This document shows, piece by piece, positions 173 to 11,888 of a DNA stretch of 64,000 bases. The notes under the pieces were generated by a model. The model did no database searches, was not told the DNA's origin, and worked only from the letters and a program-made list of their open reading frames with translations. Both the position numbers and the translations under genes were made by a program. Each line of letters begins with the position of its first letter. The stretch's first letter is position 1. This DNA is from Scytonematopsis contorta HA4267-MV1 (GTDB lineage: Bacteria; Cyanobacteriota; Cyanobacteriia; Cyanobacteriales; Nostocaceae), in NCBI GenBank assembly GCA_019359035.1, contig JAHHIC010000035.1:1-64000 (forward strand). The letters are read 5' to 3'.

Positions 173-533
173 CGGGACTGGCCAGGTTCGAACCGGCGGC
201 CTAGCGCTTCTGATTTGTGTGAGTTTCCCCACTCTCCGGACTATATCTTCACCTTAGGCTACTTTTAGTCCCTTAGGTGGTGGCTGTTTAGTCTCTACAC
301 CTTCCGTTCATTGTTTTCAGTTTGTTGCACTTAGTCTTACGTAAACAACAAAAGACTAATCATCAATTACCAAAAATCAATTTTCGGCTTGGCTCGGTAT
401 TGCCATGAAGTCTAAAGATAACCTTTTTACTTTTTAGGGTTCACCGAATTTAACCACATTCACTTACAAGGTTTCCCTTATAGTGCCCAATTTTTCAGGA
501 GGCGCTCGCTCTATCCAGCTGAGCTACAGCCCC
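173..533 (-). tRNA. trnR(CCU): tRNA-Arg(CCU), interrupted by a group I intron
   Basis: The two exons are 497-533 and 173-209 on the minus strand and join to a 74-nt cloverleaf. The acceptor arm GGGGCTG pairs with CAGTCCC (one G-U). The D stem is GCTC/GAGC, the anticodon stem is AGCGC/GCGCT, and the T arm carries GGTTCGAACC. The seven-base anticodon loop after splicing is CTCCTAA, so the anticodon is CCU. The interruption falls between anticodon base 36 and base 37, the site used by known tRNA-Arg(CCU) group I introns. CCA is not encoded. Confidence 0.93.
210..496 (-). ncRNA. group I self-splicing intron in tRNA-Arg(CCU)
   Basis: The 287-nt insertion starts after the U of the anticodon and ends in G, as group I introns do. 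Core elements are recognisable: a GGG guide element near the 5' end that can pair with the CCU of exon 1 (P1), a P4-P6 segment with GCAATACCGAGCCAAGCC close to the cyanobacterial tRNA intron consensus, and the P3/P8/P7 segment GAAGATATAGTCC near the 3' end. No homing endonuclease is encoded. The subgroup is probably IC3 by resemblance. Confidence 0.88.
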
Positions 534-6235: not shown

Positions 6236-7132
6236 ACAGCTGACCAACTCCTTATATCAGCGTTTATAGCTTACCAAAAATAATTGTCTTACAGTAGTAA
6301 CCGCAATTACTACTTATTGAAAATTATGACTATTAAAGTTTATACAGCAGTACTAAATGATTCATATTCATAGTATCGGTTGCAATACTGCTCGGTTAAG
6401 AAAATTTGTAGCTGCAAATGTTGGGTTTCGCAAAGCCTCAACCCAACCTACGTATTGTCTACTTTTTAAGCTTAACCGAGCAGCCCTAACCCATCACTTT
6501 TGTAGACTTAATATTTACTTTATATATGACCTGTGAAACGTTTTACACAAAAACATGTAACGTTTTTATACAAAATCATGTGACGTTTTTTACCCAAAAG
6601 CATGTAACGTTCTTACACAAAAGCATGTAACGTTCTTACACAAAAGCATGTAACGTTCTTACACAAAAGCATTTAACGTTTTTACACAAAAGCGGGCAAG
6701 ATGCCCGCACTACGTTTTGATGCTATTCTTTTATGAAAGGTAATAAGTATAATTAATCATTAAATATTTTATCTTTGTGATAAATATTTAATTGATGAAA
6801 ACTTTATAATTTTGATTTATTTTATTAGTGAGAATATTCATATTAACTGTATCTCTAATATAGAATGATATGTAAATCCTTATTCAGAAACTTAAATGTA
6901 TTTTCTGAAGGTAGTATATATATCATTTCTAATTCATCAGTGGTGAAAAAAAGATTGCGAAATCAATATTTTTATTAGGGAAATTTTGATTTTTATCGTA
7001 ATCATTAAAATATCAAAATCTATTGTCTAGATAAATAGATTTTATAAGTTTTCTCACTTTTGATAAAGTATTCAAGCATCTATCTTGAATGCTAGTCTTC
7101 GTATGTCTAAAAATTAGTTACTAGGGGAATAA
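6236..7132. other. gene-free interval with tandem repeats
   Basis: 6420-6453 is a GTTGGGTTTCG...AACCCAACCTAC foldback element. 6530-6700 holds 23-bp tandem repeats. From 6720 to 7130 the sequence is very AT-rich and probably includes the promoter and long leader of the CsgG-like gene; I see no further gene. Confidence 0.65.
6530..6700 (+). repeat. 23-bp tandem repeat array
   Basis: About six to seven units of ACACAAAAGCATGTAACGTT plus CTT, degenerating towards both ends. Each unit carries CATGTAACGTT, which resembles the palindrome arm at 2541-2560. Confidence 0.82.
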
Positions 7133-7810
7133 ATGAAAAATACCATGAAAACATCCAAATATAATTGGATAAATAACTATGGATGTTTGCCTATTGCTGC
7201 TTCATTTTTAGTATTTAGTTTGGGTTATTTCGCTATTTTACCAGCAAGCGCATTAGACAAAAATGTAAGCAAAATCGCTCAAATAAATATTGCATCACTG
7301 CCTGCACAAAAAGTTCGGGTTGCTGTTTTAGATTTTGACTTTAGTAGTATTAGCAACCCAAGCGTTTTATCAATCGTTGAGGGAGGAGGTCGAGGAGTTA
7401 GCGACCAATTGGTAAATAGATTAGTAAGAGATGGTCAATATAGTGTAATTGAGCGTAGCAAACTCGATGCTATTTTAAGAGAGCAGAATCTCGGTGCATC
7501 TGGAAGAGTAGATGCATCGACCGCAGCACAAATTGGTCGTATTTTAGGTGTGGATGCGGTGATAATTGGCTCTGTAACTCAATTTGATTTGCAGCAACGG
7601 GAATCTGGTGGTGGATTTTTTGGAATTGGAGCGAGAGTTACTGATACAGATGCATATGTGAAATTAAATATCCGACTTGTGAGTACCACAACAGCGGAGA
7701 TTCTCGCAGTTTCTGAAGGTAATGGTAATGCCAGTCAGTCAGATAGCCAAGTCAATATCTTTGGTATTGGTGGTGGTTCTGCAACTAGTAATCAAGGAAG
7801 TGTTGTATAG
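7133..7810 (+). CDS. CsgG-family protein, C-terminally truncated
   Basis: A 225-residue protein with an N-terminal hydrophobic export segment (about 15-38) and a CsgG-like domain. Typical blocks are VRVAVLDFDF, QYSVIERSKLDAILREQNLG, AAQIGRILGVDAVIIGSVTQFDL and VKLNIRLVSTTTAEILA. CsgG relatives form outer-membrane secretion channels or periplasmic assemblies. Cyanobacterial homologues normally continue about 25 residues beyond the point where this ends (NQGSVV), with a final amphipathic helix. The 3' end overlaps by 26 bp the equally shortened 3' end of the kinase on the other strand. The start has a good upstream AGGGGAA. It may be non-functional. Confidence 0.75.
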   Translation: MKNTMKTSKYNWINNYGCLPIAASFLVFSLGYFAILPASALDKNVSKIAQINIASLPAQKVRVAVLDFDFSSISNPSVLSIVEGGGRGVSDQLVNRLVRDGQYSVIERSKLDAILREQNLGASGRVDASTAAQIGRILGVDAVIIGSVTQFDLQQRESGGGFFGIGARVTDTDAYVKLNIRLVSTTTAEILAVSEGNGNASQSDSQVNIFGIGGGSATSNQGSVV

Positions 7811-9719
7811 AAAATTCTTGTAGTGCCTCAATGGCATTACTGATAATATTCATAAACACTTGGTTTAGTTGACCTGCATAACATTCAACTTTGGGCAACT
7901 CTCCATATTCTTTAATTACCTCGATAGCTGGATGCTCGCTATTAGCTTTGATTCGGTTGTGCAAAATAACTAGCGTGCTATCAATACCTTCGTGAATATC
8001 CACAGACTTCATTTCCCCTTCATCCAATCTGGAAAAGTTGCGTAATGTCAGTACAATTTCACGGATACGGTCAGCTCCCATGTGCATTGAAGATAGCAAC
8101 TTAGGCAAATCTTCTATTAGGTAGTAAAAATCCATCTTCTGAATCATTTGAATAATTTTAGAGTCAGGATTAGGATAATGCTGTTGATAAAGTAAAATTA
8201 AAGCTACTAAATCGTCAAAGCACTGATTTGCATGAGGGATGTTACCATAGATAAAGTTAACGGGATTATTAATTTCGTGGGCAATACCTGCGACCATTTG
8301 ACCAAGGCTAGACATTTTTTCTGTTTGGATTAATTGCCCCTGGGTGTGCTGTAATTCTAACAAAGCTAGACTCAATTTTTTCGCTTGACTCTCTGCAACT
8401 AGTGCTGCATCTCGACTTTTACAGTATAGTTCTGCCTGGTCTATAGCAATAGCTAACTGGTTGGCTACAGATTGCAACAGTTCAACATCATCATCATCCC
8501 ATGTGCGAGGTTGATTGTAATGTTCGCAAACAATAACACCGATTTGACCGGAACGTGTACGCAAAAAAACAATTAAGAGTGAAGTAATTCCTAAATAAGT
8601 TAATAGTCCTTGACTTTTGTTATCAAGCTGCTTATCAGTAGAAACATTATCTACCCGTAAAAGTTCTAAATTCCGGAGGTGTTCCCCCAGAGTTTGCATT
8701 TGCCAAATTGTATCATCATGGCTCATGCTATTAGACTTGTCGCAAATACAAGCTTCGTGACAAAGTTGAAATTGAGGCTGCTGCTCTTCATTCATCGAAC
8801 ACCAAAGAAATTTACAACGAGCAATATCAAATAAATTGCGAATTTCCTCAACTGCGGTTTCCAGAACTTTTTCTAATTCCAAAGAATTACGAATTTGGCT
8901 AGCTAGATAATTAACTAATTCTCTACGTTCTGCGACTAGTTGTAATTGGTGTTGATTTCGTTGGATTTTTTCTGCCATTTGGTCGAAGGCAATTGAAATA
9001 TGAGCTAATTCATCCGAACCTTTTAATCTACTACGTTCATCAAAATTACCTTTAGCAATAGTGTTACTGGCTTTTACTAATAAGACTGCACGGTTTGTAA
9101 GAGTTTTTTCAAAAAATATCCACACCAAAAGACAAGAGATAGCTAACACTCCAGTGGCTTCGATGGAGCGTTGCAATGCATCAGCATTAGCTCTCTGCTT
9201 AAATTTAGAAATATCATACTCCAGCAAAATAACACCCACTTTGCTGGGACGAACTTCACCAGGTTTAGAACCTAAGACTACAGGATAAATTGCCTGGACA
9301 GTTTGTTTATCAGAGGTCATTTTCACGTGTCCGGACATGTTGTACCGAACCTTTTCCATATCTGATAAGTATTTTCCTGCTTCCGTATTAATAATTTTGC
9401 TATTACGGAGTTCATAGCGCGTTGCTAAAATAATTTCATTATCTTGATTGCCGAGAATTGCCAGTCGTAATACCGGGTCTCCTCCAAGCTTACTAACGAC
9501 CAACTGCGCTCCTTCAATATCACCTTTGCGAAACAGATATTCCAGCATTCCTGAAATTTGGTCTCCAGAAAAGCGTGCTTTTTTTGTAGCAATTTCTTCT
9601 GCTCGTTCAAATGAAAGAGATATATCTCTGGCAAAAGAGAATCCACTTAATATAGTACCAAATAATAATAAAATAATTGGGATAGAAAAGCGTAGAGGAA
9701 AAGGAATATTTTTCATCAT
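7785..9719 (-). CDS. sensor histidine kinase lacking most of its ATPase domain
   Basis: A 644-residue membrane sensor. TM1 is about 8-30, followed by a periplasmic domain, TM2 (about 187-205), a HAMP segment (about 206-258), a GAF domain (about 275-435) and a HisKA domain with phospho-acceptor His481 in GIAHEINNP. The ATPase domain stops just after the N box (NIISNAIEAL). The G1, F and G2 boxes are absent and the last residues (SIQHFLDY) are read from the antisense of the CsgG-like gene, so kinase activity is unlikely. The substrate-binding protein gene lies 62 bp upstream on the same strand, suggesting an operon in which that lipoprotein feeds the sensor. Confidence 0.82.
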   Translation of the reverse strand: MMKNIPFPLRFSIPIILLLFGTILSGFSFARDISLSFERAEEIATKKARFSGDQISGMLEYLFRKGDIEGAQLVVSKLGGDPVLRLAILGNQDNEIILATRYELRNSKIINTEAGKYLSDMEKVRYNMSGHVKMTSDKQTVQAIYPVVLGSKPGEVRPSKVGVILLEYDISKFKQRANADALQRSIEATGVLAISCLLVWIFFEKTLTNRAVLLVKASNTIAKGNFDERSRLKGSDELAHISIAFDQMAEKIQRNQHQLQLVAERRELVNYLASQIRNSLELEKVLETAVEEIRNLFDIARCKFLWCSMNEEQQPQFQLCHEACICDKSNSMSHDDTIWQMQTLGEHLRNLELLRVDNVSTDKQLDNKSQGLLTYLGITSLLIVFLRTRSGQIGVIVCEHYNQPRTWDDDDVELLQSVANQLAIAIDQAELYCKSRDAALVAESQAKKLSLALLELQHTQGQLIQTEKMSSLGQMVAGIAHEINNPVNFIYGNIPHANQCFDDLVALILLYQQHYPNPDSKIIQMIQKMDFYYLIEDLPKLLSSMHMGADRIREIVLTLRNFSRLDEGEMKSVDIHEGIDSTLVILHNRIKANSEHPAIEVIKEYGELPKVECYAGQLNQVFMNIISNAIEALQEFSIQHFLDY

Positions 9720-9781: not shown

Positions 9782-10819
9782 TTATTTATGTTCATCTTGT
9801 ATATCGACTTTTTTGATTATTGAATCGTCAAAGAGAGATGTGGGGTCTATATATTTATTCAATAATTTATTATCAACCATAAATGTAGCAACATCTTTGA
9901 TTCGGTTAAGTGGTACAGTATCAATTTTGCTCAACAGGTTTTGGTTTTCTTGTAGTTCGGGAAGATGAATACCTTCTAATGATTTGAGAAACTGCTCTGG
10001 TGTCACTCCTTCACGAGGAGCGATTCTAAGAGCTGCATCTTGAGGATTTGTCTTTAAGTAATTTAAGGCACGAAAATAGCCATTAATTAAAGTCTGAGTC
10101 TCAGACTGACGCTTGCTTAAAAGATTTTGCCGCACTACAAGAACATCCAAAATTTCACCTGGAATTTGGCTACTGTCAAACAACAAATTAGCACCTGCTG
10201 CTAGCAAATTTGAACGAGTAGGTTCAAAAGTGACAACTGCGTCCACATTTCCTTGTTTGTATGCTTTTTCATGCTCTGATACTCCTAAAGAAACAATTTG
10301 AACATCTTTAGGTTTAAGTGCAACTTGTTCTAAGGCTCTCGTCACCACAAAAGCTCCCAAAGCGCCAGATTCTACCCCGAGACGCTTTCCTTTTATCCCT
10401 TGCAAGGTTTTAATCTCCGGTTTACCCAGAACCACATCTGCACCATTAGAGCTATCTATAATCAACACGATTCTGGCATCTGGCTGGGTTTCAGCAACTA
10501 ATAAAGCTTCATATAAGGTTAGGGTCACCGCTTCCAAATCTCTATTGCGGAAAGCACGGATTAATTCTGAAGCTGAGGGATAGTCAACTAAACGGATGGA
10601 CGAATCTTGGTAGTAACCTAAATCACGAGCCAAATACAAGCTTTCATAACCAGGCCACACAAGAAAACCAACCCTTAAATGGTCTGGGGGCTTCTGGATA
10701 CAACCTGTTAGGCTAAACGCAAGAAATATTCCAACAGCCATCACAAAAGTAAAATTTTTAAGGAGTTTTCTAATCCATTTCAGAAAAGATTTGCTCAATA
10801 TATATTTGTGAAATTTCAT
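9782..10819 (-). CDS. NitT/TauT-type substrate-binding lipoprotein
   Basis: A 345-residue periplasmic binding protein of the SsuA/NMT1/nitrate-sulfonate-bicarbonate class. A hydrophobic segment (about 23-40) ends in the lipobox LTGC, so it is probably a lipoprotein. The mature part begins DHLRVGFLVWPGYESLYLAR and includes KGKRLGVESGALGAF and AVVTFEP, typical of the family. No permease or ATPase gene is nearby. The next gene downstream is a membrane sensor kinase, so I infer a ligand-sensing rather than transport role. The ligand is unknown. Confidence 0.82.
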   Translation of the reverse strand: MKFHKYILSKSFLKWIRKLLKNFTFVMAVGIFLAFSLTGCIQKPPDHLRVGFLVWPGYESLYLARDLGYYQDSSIRLVDYPSASELIRAFRNRDLEAVTLTLYEALLVAETQPDARIVLIIDSSNGADVVLGKPEIKTLQGIKGKRLGVESGALGAFVVTRALEQVALKPKDVQIVSLGVSEHEKAYKQGNVDAVVTFEPTRSNLLAAGANLLFDSSQIPGEILDVLVVRQNLLSKRQSETQTLINGYFRALNYLKTNPQDAALRIAPREGVTPEQFLKSLEGIHLPELQENQNLLSKIDTVPLNRIKDVATFMVDNKLLNKYIDPTSLFDDSIIKKVDIQDEHK

Positions 10820-10958
10820 AATTACTGTGATGCACTCTGTAGTTTAACCTACTATTTTCATACTTTTGAACTGAAAGTTAAGCCGATTAAGCCGAATAAT
10901 ATGAAACCCATGCTTAAAAAAATAGTATTTTTTTCCACAAATTCTAACTCGCAAATAA

Positions 10959-11888
10959 TTATGCAATCAGACTTTTTTCTTCTTGTTTTAAGACTTGCAA
11001 GCATTCTTGTCGCAATTCTTGAAAAAGGGCTTGTTGTATTTGTACGAAAATCCTAAATCCTTCAAACACCAAACTACGGGTTTTCTCTTGCGGATATGGA
11101 GAATATTGAACAGCTAAATCTAATGCTTCCAAAGCAGCTTTATAATGTTCTTTTTCTACACCTGATTCTTGAAAACTTCCATGAATAGCTATCCAATACC
11201 AAGCACTGAACTGCTTACCATCCAATTCAACTTTACCGTGAACATCTTTAAGGTATTTATCAAAACCTGTACCTGATTTTTCGTGACGAACTACTTTATC
11301 TATAACAGTGTATTCACTGTCTGCCAGCATTTCTGAAGCAGCATGAAATCCCATTGCTTTAATTAATTCTTCGAGGTTGCCAGGTACTCCTTCGTAAGCG
11401 CTGACAGCATCAGTTAGTAATGAAGTAAGCCAATCAGGAATCTTCGCAAATTCATTTCTTTCTGACACGCTCAAACTAGCATAGTCAGCAACCGCTTTGA
11501 GAGTTGCCTGTGCAAGATTCCGATGAGTAAAACCTTTATAGCGTTTATCAGAATGTTCCTCTATGGTTGCAGAAATGACTCTGGCCGCAACTTTCAGTCC
11601 TCGGTCTGCTTCATCCAGAACATTACAGTTTTTATCTTTAAAAAGGTCACGTGATAAACCAATAGAGCTTGCAAGTCTTGCCACCAAAGGTCCTGCTGCA
11701 CCATTAAAATGGGTATAGCGCTGCATAAAAAGATAAAAGGCTTTGGGATTTTGAGTCGCAATTCGACAGCAATCCTCGACAGTTTGATTAATGGTAGAAA
11801 AATTAAAAATTTGGTCAAACTCTTTTTCAGTAAATAAATTGCTTTCCCCTAATGGGTATGCAAATTCTTGAAGAGGATAATTGGACAT
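10959..11888 (-). CDS. conserved hypothetical all-helical protein
   Basis: A 309-residue protein without signal peptide or membrane segment. I do not recognise the family. Predicted helices dominate. His residues sit in RYTHFNGAAGPLVARLA and GFHAASEMLADSEY, the latter followed by acidic residues, which is vaguely reminiscent of heme-oxygenase-like di-iron folds; this is only a hint. It stands alone, with AT-rich flanks on both sides. Confidence 0.6.
   Translation of the reverse strand: MSNYPLQEFAYPLGESNLFTEKEFDQIFNFSTINQTVEDCCRIATQNPKAFYLFMQRYTHFNGAAGPLVARLASSIGLSRDLFKDKNCNVLDEADRGLKVAARVISATIEEHSDKRYKGFTHRNLAQATLKAVADYASLSVSERNEFAKIPDWLTSLLTDAVSAYEGVPGNLEELIKAMGFHAASEMLADSEYTVIDKVVRHEKSGTGFDKYLKDVHGKVELDGKQFSAWYWIAIHGSFQESGVEKEHYKAALEALDLAVQYSPYPQEKTRSLVFEGFRIFVQIQQALFQELRQECLQVLKQEEKSLIA

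Follow-up and report, generated by a model that had tools for sequence, protein, structure and literature searches.

Two convergent genes of Scytonematopsis contorta HA4267-MV1, for a CsgG-family protein and a sensor histidine kinase, are truncated at a common junction

The locus and its two shortened genes

The window, meaning the whole 64,000-nucleotide stretch of DNA that was analyzed, corresponds to C35:1-64000 of a 10.66-Mb assembly that comprises 109 contigs and is 99.98% complete. It contains a CsgG-family gene and a sensor histidine kinase gene that converge, and the 26-bp overlap between them holds both stop codons (Table 1). A reading of the sequence alone had described this overlap, with each gene ending in the antisense of the other, and the two open reading frames bear it out; the last 8 or 9 residues of the kinase are read from the CsgG antisense strand or from the junction itself.

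Table 1. Coordinates of the features discussed (window positions unless a contig is named)
Feature	Position	Strand	Description	Basis
CsgG-family gene, 3'-truncated	7133..7810	+	225 aa	ORF, Pfam, orthologue alignments
Convergent overlap between two chance stop codons	7785..7810			ORF list, sequence
Junction interval	7798..7817		left edge, end of CsgG homology; right edge, end of kinase homology	
Sensor histidine kinase gene (HAMP-GAF-HisKA), 3'-truncated	7785..9719	-	644 aa	ORF, Pfam, orthologue alignments
NMT1/THI5-like substrate-binding protein gene	9782..10819	-	upstream partner of the kinase gene, intact; syntenic in G031 and G213	
Gene for a 309-aa protein	10959..11888	-	without Pfam match; syntenic upstream gene in G031 and G213	
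Orphan HATPase tail	C68:55173-55529 (L145:3173-3529)		no kinase body in the same frame	
Orphan HATPase tail	C41:22369-22635 (L146:2369-2635)		no kinase body in the same frame	
Orphan HATPase tail	about C37:70434-70598 (L147:3440-3595)		no kinase body in the same frame	

Two further features lie elsewhere in the window. Group I introns are known from cyanobacterial tRNA genes, and a match to one (RF00028, 72 bits, window 217-509, minus strand) apparently sits within a tRNA gene that spans about 165-540; no tRNA in the window was reported by ARAGORN. Also, the intergenic stretch at 6530-6690, upstream of the CsgG reading frame, carries short tandem-like repeats with the unit acgttcttacacaaaagcatgta.

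The CsgG product belongs to its family by a Pfam match of 158.6 bits (cut-off, 20.8), and the match covers only positions 4-178 of the 210 in the profile, versus 3-208 in the orthologue from G231. The kinase has HAMP and GAF domains and the start of a HisKA domain (PF00512, 33.2 bits against a cut-off of 26.9, profile positions 2-23 of 66), and the phospho-acceptor region AHEINNP is retained in orthologue alignments. The protein tracks its orthologues as far as ...NQVFMNIISNAIEALQE, so that the N box is present and the remainder is missing. The absent stretch carries D-N-G-x-G-I-P, F-x-P-F-F-T-T, and G-T-G-L-G-L-S in the orthologues, and Pfam found no HATPase_c match (PF02518) in the truncated kinase. 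The earlier claim that the G1, F, and G2 boxes are lacking thus stands. Judged from its domain content, the truncated kinase should be unable to form an ATP site and should not autophosphorylate, and the CsgG protein is without the end of its domain as well as the C-terminal extension.

Alignment with the orthologues places both losses at the same point. Resemblance to CsgG is clear up to about 7797 (TSNQG versus TSNEG), and resemblance to the kinase, coming from the opposite side, is clear up to about 7817 (ALQE versus ALRE). Between these two ends lie 18 to 20 bp that can be assigned to neither gene, and a few of them may be filler or common to both genes. Because homology itself gives out on either side no more than about 20 bp from a single point, the double truncation is not the work of chance stop codons; the 26-bp overlap as such is without meaning, given that each frame simply runs on to its first chance stop past the join.

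Orthologues and gene neighborhoods

Family-level protein searches covered 217 genomes (216 besides the own genome, which is the only one to represent its genus among those compared), and an order-level CsgG search and a kinase DNA search covered 60 genomes each, the own genome included. CsgG matches at E <= 1e-30 occurred in 20 of the 217 family genomes, counting our own, and in the other 19 they lie in open frames of 342 to 376 codons; the order-level search found matches in 13 of 60 genomes, again with our own. All six of the closest orthologues (G231, G225, G110, G237, G226, and G222) are full length at 340 to 348 aa, are 64 to 67% identical to the window protein over the shared part, and agree with one another throughout the C-terminal part that the window protein lacks. 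Relative to these cyanobacterial proteins, about 118 residues are missing (343 aa in G231 versus 225 aa), namely, the last part of the CsgG domain together with the C-terminal extension. The sequence-only reading was therefore right about the truncation and wrong about its extent, which it had put at about 25 residues. That figure fits only shorter, more distant members of the family, which occur in other families of the order in frames of 238 (G041) and 251 (G036) codons and still extend some 25 residues beyond the point where the window protein ends.

For the kinase, residues 1-440 matched proteins in 37 of the 217 family genomes at E <= 1e-40; near end-to-end coverage of the query was obtained, besides the own genome, only in G031 (74% identity), G213 (69%), and G220 (68%). 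All three of these orthologues are full length (749 aa in G031 and 766 aa each in G213 and G220), with identities to the truncated kinase of 76% up to residue 637 for G031 and 69 to 70% for the other two. Both of the orthologues that were scanned have a HATPase_c domain (92.3 bits in G031 and 90.4 bits in G213). In the DNA search, only G031 gave a long match beyond the own genome; it is 80% identical and stops at query base 1895, corresponding to window position 7825. Roughly 114 to 119 kinase codons have been lost.

According to the sequence-only reading, its explanation would be contradicted by orthologues whose ends are equally short and overlap in the same way. Such orthologues were sought, and the close orthologues of both genes are all full length, with the junction present in none. 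Nor are a CsgG gene and the kinase gene neighbors in any of the relatives examined, where each gene has different neighbors, and an ancestral arrangement of the pair was accordingly rejected. The neighbors of CsgG vary among the six genomes. Upstream of the kinase, G031 and G213 share the order 309-aa gene, SMR gene (a name checked in G031 only), NMT1-like gene, and kinase, and the contig of G220 runs out a short way upstream of the kinase. The gene after the kinase differs, being, to judge by the sequences, glgA in G031 and psbA in G213 and G220. The kinase of G031 (a genome inferred to be that of Nostocaceae cyanobacterium MO_167.B47) resembles the window kinase in its HAMP-GAF-HisKA body and its upstream NMT1-like gene but differs in retaining HATPase_c and in being followed by the presumed glgA rather than by CsgG. 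G031 also differs in the SMR gene between its 309-aa and NMT1-like genes: at window 10819-10959 this gene is missing while the other upstream genes are retained, and a tblastn search of the window and the following 20 kb gave no sign of it.

The missing 3' ends

Neither lost end was found in the own genome. For CsgG, two different full-length queries (L040 and L139) matched only the truncated copy; the single other match, to the L040 query, had an unconvincing E value of 0.914. For the kinase, the tail of G031, searched as DNA and as protein (with 150 of 197 first-look candidates scored in the protein search), returned only paralogues or diverged orphan tails, and neither the G213 DNA nor a tree of tails revealed a relocated copy. 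Because the tails of G031 and G213 share 63 of 86 to 88 residues (about 73%), a true lost tail should be about equally similar; the best tails in the own genome share 58 of 84 to 95 residues and belong to kinases with bodies of their own.

Each distinct tail that spanned 66 or more query residues entered the tree as a single row, and shorter orphan fragments were left out. The tree drew on part of the paralogue loci (62 loci matched) and comprised 57 rows, the three orthologues included. None of the own tails clusters convincingly with those of the orthologues in this tree, which has few columns and weak support. Only own_L094, with a branch of 1.41, fell near the orthologues, which otherwise form a group of their own; it is part of a kinase that also has a body, in a 441-codon frame, and we therefore read its placement as a long-branch effect. 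Another candidate, C109:25109-25263 (79% identical as DNA and 85% over 53 residues), belongs to a kinase frame of 961 codons that includes a body and groups with the kinase of another relative (support, 89/73).

The own genome does contain orphan HATPase tails (Table 1). The one on C37 is surrounded by other kinase pieces in other frames, with stops, and decay of kinase paralogues seems to be recurrent in this genome.

Substitutions give a further view of the kinase. With G213 as the outgroup, residue changes in the shared part number 57 on the own lineage and 37 on that of G031, a weak and borderline excess (nominal P = 0.0495) that two neighboring genes do not display (24:25 and 16:15). This pattern fits a recent loss of function. 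Moreover, no indels or stops have accumulated upstream of the junction and the dN/dS of the kinase relative to G031 is 0.15; therefore, either the event is recent or the stubs have been kept. The ratio would mostly reflect the time before the event.

Origin and meaning of the junction

We propose that about 0.7 kb or more, plus the intervening DNA, was probably deleted, which joined the middle of the CsgG gene to that of the ATPase domain in the convergent kinase gene and left two likely pseudogenes. A deletion that took both 3' ends and the DNA between them was also the explanation favored from the sequence alone, and it gains support from the full-length close orthologues and from the absence, as far as searched, of both lost ends from the assembly, which fits such an event. 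Against it weigh the separate positions of the two genes in every relative examined, the borderline rate signal, and reading frames that are otherwise undamaged. In the living strain, the deletion would have removed the kinase codons, roughly 118 CsgG codons, and the DNA between the genes, and illegitimate recombination at sites of little or no homology probably formed the join; the kinase would then have kept its phospho-acceptor histidine and N box without an ATP site. The flanks do not point to a particular route. Direct repeats shared by the 100-bp flanks of the join reach 6 bp at most, which suggests no mechanism, and a repeat-mediated deletion was rejected. An inverted repeat does span the join (17 nt, 82% complementary, 7725-7741 and 7824-7840), and by our own estimate a 9-nt exact match of the kind it includes is expected by chance about half the time between two 400-base stretches. 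Promoter-like and terminator-like matches were no better than those at shuffle level. In programmed excision of gene-interrupting elements of the nifD, fdxN, or hupL type, excision leaves an intact reading frame behind; here both frames end prematurely at the junction. The lost DNA, in which the site-specific recombinase gene of such an element would lie, was not found in the assembly.

A false join in the assembly, with both genes intact in the strain, is an unlikely alternative to deletion. The assembly is at the contig level, both reading frames are otherwise undamaged, and the genome is rich in similar kinase genes, all of which would suit such an error. Nevertheless, had two intact loci been misjoined, both 3' ends with their flanking DNA would be expected on other contigs, and neither was found in this nearly complete assembly; the window also has no run of N, and neither the junction nor the CsgG gene is repeated elsewhere in the genome. 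The same argument disfavors an inversion, since it too would leave the 3' ends elsewhere, and we regard any inversion, translocation, or insertion of a segment that moved both ends away as improbable. Some rearrangement must once have brought the two genes together, as evidenced by gene neighborhoods that differ in all relatives examined, and the orphan tails on C68, C41, and C37 might be thought to be the displaced end. However, identity to the G031 tail is just 50 to 57% along the C68 and C41 tails; for the C37 tail it is 75%, in a highly conserved stretch of 53 residues in which paralogues from the own genome attain 85%. No orphan tail groups with the orthologues in the tree, and neither full-length CsgG query found a CsgG tail anywhere in the own genome.

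It is very improbable that the short proteins are functional, with the kinase stub serving as a partner without ATPase or as a phosphate sink and the shortened CsgG being tolerated. Both frames are open up to the junction, AHEINNP and the N box are retained, the kinase dN/dS is low, and CsgG-family members in short frames exist in other families of the order. Yet that ratio mostly predates the event, change in the kinase is slightly faster on the own lineage, the cut passes through both the ATPase fold and the CsgG domain, and even the short CsgG relatives keep the additional residues noted above. Less probable still is a specific role in which a retained HAMP-GAF-HisKA protein, its gene still next to that of its NMT1-like partner, would act as a phosphotransfer or dominant-negative partner of other kinases in this kinase-rich genome, with the overlap coupling its expression to that of the short CsgG.

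Deletion-junction pseudogenes occur in bacterial genomes, and the present case is like them in having one join, two flanking 3' ends lost, and a lost segment without trace; there is no substantive difference, the convergent orientation being incidental. Within the partial coverage of our literature search, the junction is not mentioned. We infer that both genes have lost their function and are most likely pseudogenes, and that the event was most likely an ordinary pseudogenizing deletion, on which no general principle rests. For annotation, neither reading frame should be named a working histidine kinase or CsgG protein. The locus places one more decayed kinase on record in a cyanobacterial genome rich in kinase paralogues.
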